24,081 nucleotides of DNA from a virus. The DNA is taken from positions 1 through 24,081 of the IMG/VR virus record IMGVR_UViG_3300015372_000024; one strand, 5' to 3'. How positions within the stretch are numbered: the stretch's first letter is position 1; every line of letters begins with the position of its first letter. The notes below the pieces were generated by a model. It had not been told where the DNA came from and did not search any database. It saw nothing but the letters and a program-made list of their open reading frames with translations. The position numbers were made by a program, and so were the translations under genes. Shown here in pieces: positions 7,667 through 11,137 of this stretch.

Positions 7667-7813
7667 CTAACAGCCGCTTCCGACCGGGGCGTCGGCCTTG
7701 GACGGTGCCGCCCGGTTGGTGCAGGCATCGGCATCCGCCGCCTGTTCGAGGTCGGCATCGGTCGGCTGCTCGATGATGTCATCAAGGTCTTGCACTTGCT
7801 TCTTCGGGTCCAT
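7667..7813 (-). CDS. Small acidic peptide (48 aa), last gene of the minus operon
   Basis: Forty-eight residues, strongly acidic in the first 32 (QVQDLDDIIEQPTDADLEQAADADA) and with two Cys, at about residue 31 and the C-terminus. It starts at ATG 7813 with GGAG of an AATTGGAG leader eight bases upstream; ATG 7819, which overlaps the previous stop, is too close to that site. It follows the IbrB-like gene directly. No family recognised. Small acidic proteins near DNA-acting genes can be DNA mimics, but nothing here proves that. Confidence 0.5.
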   Translation of the reverse strand: MDPKKQVQDLDDIIEQPTDADLEQAADADACTNRAAPSKADAPVGSGC

Positions 7814-7815
7814 TG

Positions 7816-8331
7816 TCATTTCTCCAATTCACTCGGTACCCAACCGTTTGCGAAACCCTCGGCGCTGCCGCGCTTCAGCATCCCGCCCGTGTCGAGCAAC
7901 CGTTCCACTTCCTCGTCCTCCATGCCAAGCCGCTTCATGATTTCGGATTCCGGCAGCTTGAATTCAACTGACAGCCTACGGACGATATCCGCCATTTTGA
8001 GGACACCGTGCGTTCCCCGTGCGCGATTATGCCGGATGGTGCTCATCATCTGATCGGCGTTACTGCGCGGAGTGAGGCGAACCACCGGCACCATTCCTTT
8101 GGTGAGCGCCGCCACTTCCCGGTCATGGGTGGCCAGATAGAAGCGATGATAGCCATCGACAATCTCGCCATCTTCGCGCGCCACGATTGGTTGCGTCCAG
8201 CCATCCTCCAAGATCGACAGCTTGAGCAATTCCAGTTCAGGCGGCGCTACGTGATTTGGATTGTAGAAATTTGCGCGGAGCGTTTTTGGATCGGTCCATT
8301 CTACGGATGACACGGGCTGAGTTCTGTCCAT
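7816..8331 (-). CDS. IbrB-like ParB-domain protein (171 aa)
   Basis: A ParB/sulfiredoxin-fold protein. It has LKLSILEDGWTQPIV (about residues 36-50), IVDGYHRFYLA (about 57-67, the position of the ParB GxRR box), and QMMSTIRHNRARGTH (about 93-107), a segment I associate with IbrB-type co-activators. IbrB works with IbrA in E. coli, where the pair activates eib genes; ParB-fold proteins of this kind bind or hydrolyse nucleotides. The PP-loop IbrA-like gene lies just upstream in the same operon, supporting the pairing. ATG 8331 follows a strong GGAGGT by about six bases and lies inside the 3' part of the small gene upstream, a 95-base overlap. Confidence 0.8.
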   Translation of the reverse strand: MDRTQPVSSVEWTDPKTLRANFYNPNHVAPPELELLKLSILEDGWTQPIVAREDGEIVDGYHRFYLATHDREVAALTKGMVPVVRLTPRSNADQMMSTIRHNRARGTHGVLKMADIVRRLSVEFKLPESEIMKRLGMEDEEVERLLDTGGMLKRGSAEGFANGWVPSELEK

Positions 8332-8467
8332 CGGGTACCTCCGAAACGTAGATGCAGTGCAGCCGGTGGCGACGGAGCAGCGTCTTCAGTCCGGCGCGCA
8401 GGGCGTGGATGCCGTCGACATTAGGCCCCGGTCGTAAGTGCACGATGTAAGTAGGTCTATCAGTCAT
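8237..8467 (-). CDS. Small basic protein between IbrA- and IbrB-like genes (76 aa)
   Basis: Residues 1-45 (TYIVHLRPGPNVDGIHALRA then LKTLLRRHRLHCIYV) match a small-protein pattern I have seen repeatedly in phage replication and ParB neighbourhoods; its function is unknown. It starts at an ATGA junction with the IbrA-like gene. The last 31 residues are read from the same DNA as the IbrB-like N-terminus in another frame and are basic and low in complexity. The conserved core probably ends near residue 48, with the tail a frame extension. Likely a helical nucleic-acid-associated protein; that is inference. Confidence 0.65.
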   Translation of the reverse strand: MTDRPTYIVHLRPGPNVDGIHALRAGLKTLLRRHRLHCIYVSEVPDGQNSARVIRRMDRSKNAPRKFLQSKSRSAA

Positions 8468-9747
8468 GCCACCAACTCCGATACCGGCGTCACTGCCATT
8501 TCCTTCTCGTACCGCTCGCGCGCCTTGGCCACGGTCAGGCCGTGCATTCCCGGTTGCTTGCGGTCCTTGTAGTCGCCGCGCATGGCGATGACCAGAAGGA
8601 ATTGCCATGAGATCCCGGTGATCGGATGCGGGGCGCGCGGCGCGATGAAGTCTTTGGTCTTATCATGGTGGCCGTCGATCCAGCGTTTCACCCGAGCGGC
8701 AATCTCTCCGCGATACGGTTGCGGGTGCTTCTCGATCCACTGCCGGATGAACGCTGGCCACGACATGCCAGCCGGTTTATCGGGGACGCCGCCGTAGGCG
8801 TAGAGCTCGGTCTGCGAATACCGCGCTGCGGTGGCCGCGCCGGGGACGCGGTTGCTCATCTTGTCCCAAATCTCGGGGAAGCAGATGGCGAACGTCCACA
8901 GTCCGCGCATCGGTTCCTCGCCGTAGGGCGGCGCGCAGCGTTGATCGTTATGGCTGATGCCCGCCGCTTCCATCACGTCATAGGCCGCGTTGTGATCCCA
9001 ACCGAACAGCTTAGGCGCGGTCCAGACGTCAGCCGTCGACCAATCGTAGATCGGATAGACCTTGACCAGATTCTCCGCCCACGGGCGGATATATGGTCGC
9101 GTATCGGAGTGGCGCATGAGGATGGCGCGCGTCCGCGTCAGGCTCTCGTCAGCGCGAATGCCCATGACCATCGCGGTCCTGCCGTACTGAAGTTTTTCAA
9201 ACAGAAGCGGGACACTGTCCGGCATGGTCGGGCGCTTCTCTCGTTCAGCGGGGAAGCCCTCGACCTGATCGAACGTGATGGCCTCGGGCGGTAACGGACG
9301 AACCCACTTAGCCTCGTCCTCCGGAGCCCACGGATACCAATAGGGCTGCTTGCGGGTGCAGGCGTTGCGGTGCTGGATCGGCAGACAGTACCAGCGCAAC
9401 TCGAGCCCCGGCATGGCGGCGACCCGGCGAACGTAATCCTCTGTTTCGTATGGGATGGCTTCCTCGTCGTAGTGAAACACGATGAGGTTCTTGCCTCTGG
9501 CCTGCGCCGCATCCAGAGCCAGATGGAGACAGACCGTCGAGTCCTTGCCGCCGCTGAAGGACACCGCCACCGTGTCGAACAATTTGAACGCCTCGTCCAC
9601 GCGCTCGCGCGCCAGATCAAGTACGTTCTTGTCGATGGCTTTTTTCTTGGCGATCTTTCCGGTGGAGAGCGACGCGCGATCGATATCCGGAGCAACCAGA
9701 TCGTCGCCGGAAAAGCCCTCATCGGTTACGGTAACTGTTTCCTTCAT
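8464..9747 (-). CDS. IbrA-like PP-loop ATPase, PAPS-reductase family (DUF3440 type)
   Basis: A 427-residue adenine-nucleotide alpha-hydrolase. The PP-loop SGGKDS is at residues 65-70. Downstream are MGIRADESLTRTRAI, VYPIYDWSTADVW, AGISHNDQRCAPPYGEEP, CFPEIWDKMSNRVPGAA, and a C-terminal KHPQPYRGE...HHDKTKDF region. The WST(A/E)DVW and APPYGEEP blocks match IbrA/DUF3440 proteins rather than CysH: the C-terminal ECGxH redox Cys motif of true PAPS reductases is absent. The family adenylates or activates a substrate using ATP; the substrate is unknown. DndC of DNA phosphorothioation is a distant relative. The start is two bases after the cupin stop, so the genes are coupled. IbrB-like and small genes follow. 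Confidence 0.88.
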   Translation of the reverse strand: MKETVTVTDEGFSGDDLVAPDIDRASLSTGKIAKKKAIDKNVLDLARERVDEAFKLFDTVAVSFSGGKDSTVCLHLALDAAQARGKNLIVFHYDEEAIPYETEDYVRRVAAMPGLELRWYCLPIQHRNACTRKQPYWYPWAPEDEAKWVRPLPPEAITFDQVEGFPAEREKRPTMPDSVPLLFEKLQYGRTAMVMGIRADESLTRTRAILMRHSDTRPYIRPWAENLVKVYPIYDWSTADVWTAPKLFGWDHNAAYDVMEAAGISHNDQRCAPPYGEEPMRGLWTFAICFPEIWDKMSNRVPGAATAARYSQTELYAYGGVPDKPAGMSWPAFIRQWIEKHPQPYRGEIAARVKRWIDGHHDKTKDFIAPRAPHPITGISWQFLLVIAMRGDYKDRKQPGMHGLTVAKARERYEKEMAVTPVSELVA

Positions 9748-9749
9748 GC

Positions 9750-10490
9750 CTACTGCCGGATTTCCTTGGTCCGGATTTCATCAATGTCCTTGGCGCTGAC
9801 GCCCTCGACGATTGTTCTATTCAGCATGGGATGGTTCTCGTGCGTCGGGCCGAAGTCGGTGTCCGGATGAAACACAGTTAGGTCCATGCCGCTGCCGTCC
9901 GTCACGAAGGCATGGATCGCATCGGGCGCTAGGATGAACACGCGACCGGGAGTGAGATCCTCGGTGCTGTCAGCCGTGATGCATTTTCCGCGACCACCGT
10001 GGATCAGTCCGGCCCGCACGGTCGGATGCGTATGCTTGGTTTGCGTGATGCCTTGCGGAAAGTGCAACAGGTTGAAACACGGATCGCCCTTGAGCGGCGG
10101 CGCGATGAGTAAGGTGTCACTACATCCGTCGATGTACCGCAACCGGCCCACGTCTTCTACGGGACCGCCCAAGTGGCGCAGGCCCATAAATCCCAAGCGG
10201 TAGACGAAGAACGCCATCGCGTCCTTGCTGGCGAAAATCTTGATGCCGTTCTTTCCCGGCGCGGAGAAGTATTCATACTGGCGAACGGGCGTGACGAACG
10301 AGCCGCCGTGTCCGGCACCGACCACTTCGATCTGTCCGCTCATGACAAAGCCGTAGGCGGTCCCCATAGCGCCGACCGACATTCCGGCAATGTCAGAGCC
10401 GATGACGCCGTACACCGCGCAGGGAAATTCCTCGTCGCTGAAGTCGGCCATGAGGCCATGCTTCAGGTCCATGATGGTCGCGTCCTTCAA
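9750..10490 (-). CDS. Cupin-domain protein (246 aa), TTG start
   Basis: The C-terminal domain has cupin motif 1 around residues 148-168 (ITQTKHTHPTVRAGLIHGGRG, His153 and His155) and motif 2 around 179-197 (LTPGRVFILAPDAIHAF, His193), then TVFHPDTDFGPT and HPMLNRTIVEG. The N-terminal half (about 25-80) also resembles a degenerate cupin barrel, suggesting a bicupin. Cupins of this type bind Fe or Mn and act as oxygenases, isomerases or small-ligand binders; the substrate is unknown. The first codon is TTG 10490, overlapping the ParB stop (TTGA), with GGAGG five bases upstream; ATG 10472 is an alternative. Its place between ParB and IbrA-like genes links it to that module. Confidence 0.8.
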   Translation of the reverse strand: MKDATIMDLKHGLMADFSDEEFPCAVYGVIGSDIAGMSVGAMGTAYGFVMSGQIEVVGAGHGGSFVTPVRQYEYFSAPGKNGIKIFASKDAMAFFVYRLGFMGLRHLGGPVEDVGRLRYIDGCSDTLLIAPPLKGDPCFNLLHFPQGITQTKHTHPTVRAGLIHGGRGKCITADSTEDLTPGRVFILAPDAIHAFVTDGSGMDLTVFHPDTDFGPTHENHPMLNRTIVEGVSAKDIDEIRTKEIRQ

Positions 10491-11137
10491 GCCTTCCTCC
10501 CGTACTCGTCGGCTATTGCAATCAGTGCCTCGGCTGTGGTGCGCAATTTCCGGTTATCGCGCTCGGTGGCCAGCCATGCGATCACCTTGTCCCGGTCGGC
10601 TGGCATCATATCAAATTTCAAGGACACCCCGCGCGCCCCCGGCACCACCGCACTGCTTTCCTTCACGTCAGCGCCGATGATATCCGCTAGGAAACCGCCG
10701 GGGTTGAGCAGCATCAATTCCTTGTCGTCAAATCCGAGGTCGGGGATATCGAAGCCGTTGAGTTTCAGATCGTCTATTTCCAGACGGAGCAGCGCCTCAT
10801 CCCAACCAGCGAGCAAGGCAACCTTGTTATCGGATATCCGCAGCCCGCGCTTGTCAGCTTCTGAAAGCCCCCGGTGAACGACCACGGGGAATTCCGTGAA
10901 GCCTGCCTTGAGTGCCGCCAATCGCCTGCCGTGACCCTTGAGGATGACGCCGCCCTCATCGACCACGATGGGCTGGTCGACGCCATGCTTGAGCATCAGC
11001 TTGGAGAGTAATTCCACCTGTACGTCTGGATGCTCGCGGGCATTGCGGTCGTATGGCTTGATCTTTTCAAGCGCCCATTTCTCGACCACTTCGGCAGGCC
11101 AAGCGGTTTTGGAAACCGCAGCCGTCGCTTTCGCCAA
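10487..11137 (-). CDS. Phage ParB-domain protein without a methyltransferase half (216 aa), TTG start
   Basis: Residues 20-115 form a ParB N-terminal domain: KIKPYDRNAREHPD (25-38), GVDQPIVVDEGGVILKGHG (52-70) with the GHGRR box at 68-72, then FTEFPVVVHRGLSEADKRGL and RISDNKVALLAGWDEALL. In phages this exact arrangement is commonly the front half of a ParB-DNA adenine methyltransferase fusion. Here the protein stops after about 100 further residues with no DPPY or FxGxG methyltransferase motif, so it is a stand-alone or truncated version. TTG 11137 is chosen because AAGGAG lies six bases upstream and no ATG or GTG fits. It overlaps the cupin start. Confidence 0.85.
   Translation of the reverse strand: MAKATAAVSKTAWPAEVVEKWALEKIKPYDRNAREHPDVQVELLSKLMLKHGVDQPIVVDEGGVILKGHGRRLAALKAGFTEFPVVVHRGLSEADKRGLRISDNKVALLAGWDEALLRLEIDDLKLNGFDIPDLGFDDKELMLLNPGGFLADIIGADVKESSAVVPGARGVSLKFDMMPADRDKVIAWLATERDNRKLRTTAEALIAIADEYGRKA

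Follow-up and report, generated by a model that had tools for sequence, protein, structure and literature searches.

A phage cassette of the IbrAB kind in which a bicupin, transporters and an aldehyde dehydrogenase share one slot

What brings two ParB-fold proteins, a cupin and a PP-loop protein of the IbrA type together in a phage genome? The question is raised by a phage fragment, the 24,081 nt of virus record IMGVR_UViG_3300015372_000024 (hereafter the window), in which six minus-strand ORFs overlap or abut (Table 1). Hundreds of isolate phages have IbrA-like genes, and phage PF01507 proteins are commonly taken as sulfur-metabolism genes (PAPS reductase, cysH). In many viromics papers cysH/PAPS reductase appears among the auxiliary metabolic genes, and IbrA-type proteins may be included there. 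The cassette described here is a variant of the IbrAB kind, and no description of it was found in open-access papers naming IbrA, DUF3440, or a cupin with ParB.

Table 1. ORFs of the window, and slot genes of the seven full-flank module loci that lack the bicupin
Feature	Position	Strand	Description
ParB1	10487..11137	-	ParB_N-type protein, 216 aa, TTG start
Bicupin	9750..10490	-	Slot gene of the cassette, 246 aa
IbrA	8464..9747	-	IbrA-type PP-loop protein, 427 aa; SGGKDS intact; without invariant Cys
Small ORF	8237..8467	-	76 aa; overlaps ParB2; outside the conserved cassette; without family match
ParB2	7816..8331	-	IbrB-type ParB/Srx protein, 171 aa
Acidic ORF	7667..7819	-	50 aa; outside the conserved cassette; without PHROG match
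Slot of L020, L188, L189			Na+/solute symporter (SSF)
Slot of L199			TctC solute-binding protein
Slot of L022			Small Cupin_2 and aldehyde dehydrogenase
Slot of L195			Small Cupin_2
Slot of L192			Small Cupin_2; symporter on the same contig

ParB1 and the cupin share a TTGA overlap (10490/10487), cupin and IbrA are separated by 2 nt (9749-9748), and ATGA overlaps join IbrA to the small ORF (8467/8464) and ParB2 to the acidic ORF (7819/7816); the small ORF overlaps ParB2 by 95 nt. The six ORFs and their junctions are as given in the initial annotation, and the two ParB-fold proteins, the IbrA and the cupin that it named were recovered with family matches far beyond chance (E from 5e-83 to about 1e-5). 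Its module of six genes was rejected in that form. ParB1, cupin, IbrA and ParB2 are one unit in phages, but the small and acidic ORFs are not members: no homologue of either was found in any other locus searched, and both are present only in a 40-kb IMG/VR sister contig with 99.8% identity to the window across 19,351 bases. The conserved unit is therefore taken to be the four genes. Elsewhere in the window, positions 893-2491 encode an AAA ATPase of phrog_8638 (E 2e-166), a family to which no function is assigned.

The four genes are linked in viral loci. A cupin alignment run against 2.9 million viral contigs found 351 relatives; 80 of them were retained and 79 scored. IbrA and ParB2 were present in 75 of these 79 loci, found through the cupin alone, and each of the remaining four is truncated by the end of its contig; in viruses, the cupin and the first ParB were thus not found unlinked from IbrAB. 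Gene order was ParB1-cupin-IbrA-ParB2 in 73 contigs of the deduplicated set and ParB1-IbrA-ParB2-cupin in 20. For loci that the IbrA search recovered with flanks of 2.5 kb or more on each side (full-flank loci), and counting contigs of which some are closely related, as in all linkage counts here, module-type IbrA was accompanied by ParB1 in 32/32 and by the bicupin in 25/32, against 0/18 and 0/18 for classical phage IbrA (Fisher 6e-14 and 5e-8, respectively), the two types having been set before the tree by score against a profile made of the window IbrA's relatives. Chance adjacency of the cassette genes was considered and rejected. The cassettes of relatives often sit just upstream of terminase-like genes, Mycobacterium phage Philly included (ParB1-74-aa ORF-IbrA-ParB2-terminase); the cassette in the window does not adjoin a terminase gene.

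No DNA-level match to the window region was present in 50,697 isolate phages, and the bicupin was absent from the same phages by tblastn with two different queries; the bicupin cassette therefore has no known occurrence outside uncultivated viruses and a small number of MAGs. Related forms are borne by the cultured mycobacteriophages Philly, Gaia and Nebkiss. IbrA and IbrB, which the initial annotation took for an E. coli speciality, have tblastn matches in 215 and 221 isolate-phage records, respectively.

The place of the cupin is a swappable slot, in which the bicupin, a Na+/solute symporter, a TctC protein, and a small cupin with an aldehyde dehydrogenase exchange (Table 1). The cupin had been proposed as a part of the IbrAB unit; it is linked to that unit in viruses, but it is only one of several interchangeable slot genes, and the same cupin family on bacterial chromosomes is mostly without IbrAB. 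IbrA identity across such exchanges was 78-81% between a cupin locus (L202) and two TctC loci (L191/L199), and 72-78% between another cupin locus (L015) and two SSF loci (L020/L188). As in some other loci, no recognised slot gene lies nearby in L190. Of 61 viral symporters found by SSF alone, 53 adjoin IbrA and none (0/61) is accompanied by the bicupin; bicupin and symporter were never together in the sampled loci. About half of the IbrA matches at SSF loci fall into a more remote group, with profile scores of about 135-182 (the Philly IbrA scores 180), and some loci of this group (L336, L342) look like Firmicutes prophages. With TctC alone as query both loci found (2/2) had IbrA, and with the dehydrogenase all near relatives (3/3) were linked to IbrA and seven distant ones (33-34%) were unlinked. 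By sequence the symporter is nearest to DUR3 urea and choline transporters, and the dehydrogenase to aminobutyraldehyde/betaine-aldehyde types. Phage-encoded symporters lie at L020:3746-5155, L188:3599-5032 and L342:4013-5401; in L349 and L351 a symporter without IbrA stands beside other genes.

IbrA matches phrog_2302 (E 5e-83) and the Pfam families PAPS_reduct (4e-14) and DUF3440 (1e-8). The SGGKDS ATP site is intact in the window protein and in 73 aligned relatives. The lack of the CysH catalytic Cys, already remarked upon in the initial annotation, extends to the alignment, since none of the Cys columns is invariant in 73 rows; the best, C121 (69/73) and C130 (62/73), are both in the N-terminal half. 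In searches of the PDB, where single sequences yielded little and profiles more, the best solved relative of the IbrA profile was CysD (3e-6), and FAD synthase, LarE and QueC were also matched. The AF2 model (pLDDT 89.6) matched the folds of FAD synthase, CysH, CysD, TilS and LarE. In the IbrA tree a branch of length 0.56 (SH-aLRT 100) splits module from classical proteins, and the cassette's IbrA is by this tree a clade of its own, apart from classical phage IbrA; a DEE(A/V)I motif is present in most module-type IbrA. In addition to IbrA, 11 loci contain another PP-loop gene, which resembles PAPS reductase.

Residues 5-143 of ParB1 match phrog_498, 'DNA methyltransferase' (E 4e-39); phrog_620 (E 8e-39) and the N-terminus of PADLOC MTase_II (E 3e-27) are also matched, and the ParB1 profile finds Spo0J/Noc in the PDB (E 4e-12). 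Judged by its best match, ParB1 is related to the ParB domain found ahead of DNA methyltransferases in phages. ParB2 matches phrog_2159 (E 2e-58) and keeps invariant DGxHR and NRxxG (consensus HNRARG) across module and classical rows. Its profile matches ParB-family chains in the PDB (E 1e-6) and, weakly, SerK and SbnI.

The cupin has weak Pfam matches to AraC_binding (the best) and Cupin_2 (about 1e-5) and no PHROG match. Its AF2 model (pLDDT 96.2) is a two-barrel cupin, placed by Foldseek nearest to UGlyAH-like, oxalate decarboxylase (OxdC) and BacB structures, with TM 0.57-0.64 to 1sfn, 1sef and 4e2q. About 20 polar residues are invariant or nearly so; H153, H193, R159, D121, C123, D125, C138, N140, Q150, H208, H220 and N224 are invariant in 92 relatives, and H155 is kept in 99%. 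The canonical Glu metal ligand is absent, its position being the invariant Arg159, and HxH (H153xH155) and H193 are present. By cupin motifs the site would be of the 3-His type, Arg taking the usual Glu position. The two-barrel fold is thus shared with ureidoglycine aminohydrolase and other bicupin enzymes, whereas the Glu ligand is not.

Viral and bacterial cupins are intermixed in one tree. The bacterial clusters contain the same bicupin family, roughly 36-50% identical, near genes of other ATP-activating enzymes, namely AsnB-like (23 loci), AMP-binding (8) and PP-loop (8) genes, and some are NRPS-like; they differ from the cassette in that most lack IbrA or ParB and some resemble loci for natural products. 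The neighbours of the cupin in Maricaulis-type genomes (NeuB and others) are on the opposite strand. One undescribed bacterial cluster (L171:5017-9508, L125, L180) combines a zinc-ribbon protein that weakly matches Toprim, an AsnB-like protein and the bicupin, sometimes with a PP-loop protein of 354 aa that no Pfam family matches. On a Paraburkholderia caribensis megaplasmid (L264:5854-6591, unannotated there in the record) the bicupin lies beside methyltransferase-like and desaturase-like genes, and no IbrA was noticed.

A second association of cupins with IbrAB was found in isolate phages. In Mycobacterium phage Gaia, IbrA is followed by one protein that joins an EctC-like cupin (PF06339, E 1e-32) to IbrB; this fusion (L266:5320-6219) is annotated in GenBank as an ectoine synthase/ParB multidomain protein. 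Relatives of the Gaia protein were found at 44 viral loci, with the EctC-like cupin in 38, of which 36 have IbrA on the contig. The cupin is fused to IbrB in 14 loci and otherwise mostly a separate ORF between IbrA and IbrB, although ORF splits may include frame errors. The EctC-like cupin is also found in Pseudoalteromonas phage XCL1123. As in the cassette, a cupin accompanies IbrA and IbrB in these loci (Gaia, Nebkiss, XCL1123), but the cupin is single-barrelled, the IbrA is of the classical type and no ParB1 was found beside the cupin-bearing loci. Since the bicupin and the EctC-like cupin come from different families, IbrAB gained a cupin on two or more occasions; from this family assignment, classical IbrAB took up the EctC-like cupin independently of the bicupin cassette.

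Several known systems resemble the cassette in part. The closest is the IbrA/IbrB pair of the E. coli IbrAB island and of hundreds of phages, in which a PP-loop PAPS_reduct/DUF3440 protein likewise stands beside an IbrB-type ParB and invariant residues are shared; the cassette differs by the separate IbrA clade, by ParB1 and usually by a slot gene, and the sampled classical IbrA has neither of these genes. In the CmoA-CmoX-CmoY system of phage cytosine hypermodification an ATP-dependent, AMP-forming ligase completes the modification, and phage CmoX loci for cytosine carboxymethylation often carry a ParBc protein (PMC12783734), but none of CmoA, CmoX and CmoY was recognised in the cassettes, and IbrA is not an asparagine synthetase. 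In Dnd, the PP-loop protein DndC adjoins the ParB-superfamily protein DndB (PMC10853773); cassette IbrA is without an invariant Cys, however, and no DndA/D/E partners were seen.

How might such a set of genes work together? It is possible, if somewhat short of probable, that IbrA adenylates a small molecule which the slot gene makes or imports, and that this molecule is then joined to a target recognised by ParB, most likely the DNA of the phage. The slot gene would make or import a small molecule, probably amino-acid-like or another carboxylate; in the window, the cupin would make or tailor it by metal-dependent, possibly oxygen-using, chemistry. IbrA would then activate the small molecule, or its acceptor, by adenylylation, as we infer because its SGGKDS is intact, no Cys is invariant and the profile is nearest to CysD. 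ParB2/IbrB would direct the attachment, ParB1 would provide DNA recognition, and a base in phage DNA would be the likeliest target, the genome thereby being hidden from host nucleases. DNA is favoured because of the kinship of ParB1, because relatives often have the cassette beside terminase genes, and by analogy with CmoX loci carrying ParBc (PMC12783734). DNA modification fits best; in the open-access literature searched, no DNA modification was reported for any IbrAB phage.

The neighbours bear on the first two steps. A glutamine-amidotransferase-domain ORF lies close to IbrA in L051/L052/L054 (the match in L231 is below the Pfam cut-off), and this ORF, together with the AsnB-like, AMP-binding and PP-loop neighbours of bacterial cupins, would agree with adenylylation. 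The DUR3/choline-like symporter, the aminobutyraldehyde/betaine-aldehyde-type dehydrogenase and the EctC-like cupin hint at a small nitrogen compound, amino-acid-like or otherwise; no single substrate follows from them, and the EctC-like and UGlyAH-like resemblances give no common one. Against the proposed scheme, ParB1 and ParB2 could bind nucleotides or DNA without modifying DNA, and symporter and cupin could be separate accessory functions and not equivalents; the window cassette's position away from terminase genes and loci such as L190 that lack a recognised slot gene also count against it. The fuller picture, that of a phage DNA-decoration system whose group comes from the exchangeable slot (made by cupin or dehydrogenase, imported by symporter or binding protein) and is adenylated and put on DNA by one ParB-IbrA-IbrB machine, is somewhat unlikely as a whole. 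If true, this would be a system of a new type, in which a phage imports a nutrient in order to modify its own DNA.

RNA bases or small molecules are the substrates of the PP-loop enzymes TilS, QueC, LarE and CysD, and free-serine kinases are found among ParB/Srx proteins. With LarE, QueC and CysD among the profile matches of IbrA, and SerK and SbnI among the weak ones of ParB2, the same machinery may serve another target, the small molecule being attached to tRNA, protein or a free nucleotide, for example against host defence. This is improbable, as the methyltransferase-type kinship of ParB1 and the frequent terminase position point to DNA.

Regulation is another reading. In E. coli the IbrAB island is an activator of prophage eib genes, to go by the title of Sandt 2002 as cited in PMC10434257, and in Flavobacterium phages IbrAB has been treated as a possible virulence factor. 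That IbrA and IbrB co-activate phage or prophage genes in this way, with the cupin as ligand sensor, would agree with its top Pfam match, AraC_binding. We consider it quite unlikely, since the conserved polar residues of the cupin look catalytic, the slot is swapped for a symporter, TctC or dehydrogenase, none of them regulators, and the ATP site of IbrA is intact throughout the alignment.

The affinities of symporter, dehydrogenase and EctC-like cupin would also suit metabolic cargo, that is, auxiliary genes for osmolyte or nitrogen supply lying beside IbrAB by chance. Such a coincidence is very doubtful given the near-total linkage to IbrA from the slot side (75/79 cupin and 53/61 SSF loci), the absence of any sampled locus with both cupin and SSF, and the fusion of the EctC-like cupin to IbrB.

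Sulfur chemistry, whether as PAPS reductase (an isolate-phage PF01507 protein is read as such an auxiliary metabolic gene in PMC10434257) or as DndC-like phosphorothioation enzyme, is the most improbable reading, for besides the PF01507 match it has a DndC match of E 3e-7 confined to 57 residues (187-243), while NCBIfam scores lie far below the cut-offs (CysH 30 bits against 154; DndC 23 bits against 290). PAPS reductase chemistry is unlikely because no Cys is invariant, the ATP PP-loop is kept and the profile is nearest to an adenylylating enzyme, CysD; the missing Cys and the CysH score speak against a CysH identity, which was rejected. Dnd/Ssp phosphorothioation was rejected on the DndC score and on the lack of recognised dnd partners in the neighbourhoods inspected; of the phosphorothioation link drawn in the initial annotation a weak, partial DndC match is left. 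For the IbrA family at large, a role in sulfur metabolism is made less likely by the intact PP-loop, the lack of any invariant Cys and ParB partners that are constant, and the exchange of cupin for transporter beside a constant ParB-IbrA-IbrB core makes these genes of undescribed biochemistry a testable pathway.

Further genes were noted near individual cassettes: a radical SAM protein (L225:6002-7255), a radical-SAM-looking ORF without Pfam match (L064:7506-8090) and a 2OG-Fe(II) oxygenase (L188:2364-3035). In one locus ParB1 is fused to DUF4417 (L067:2777-3910), downstream of the cupin-IbrA-ParB2 cassette.
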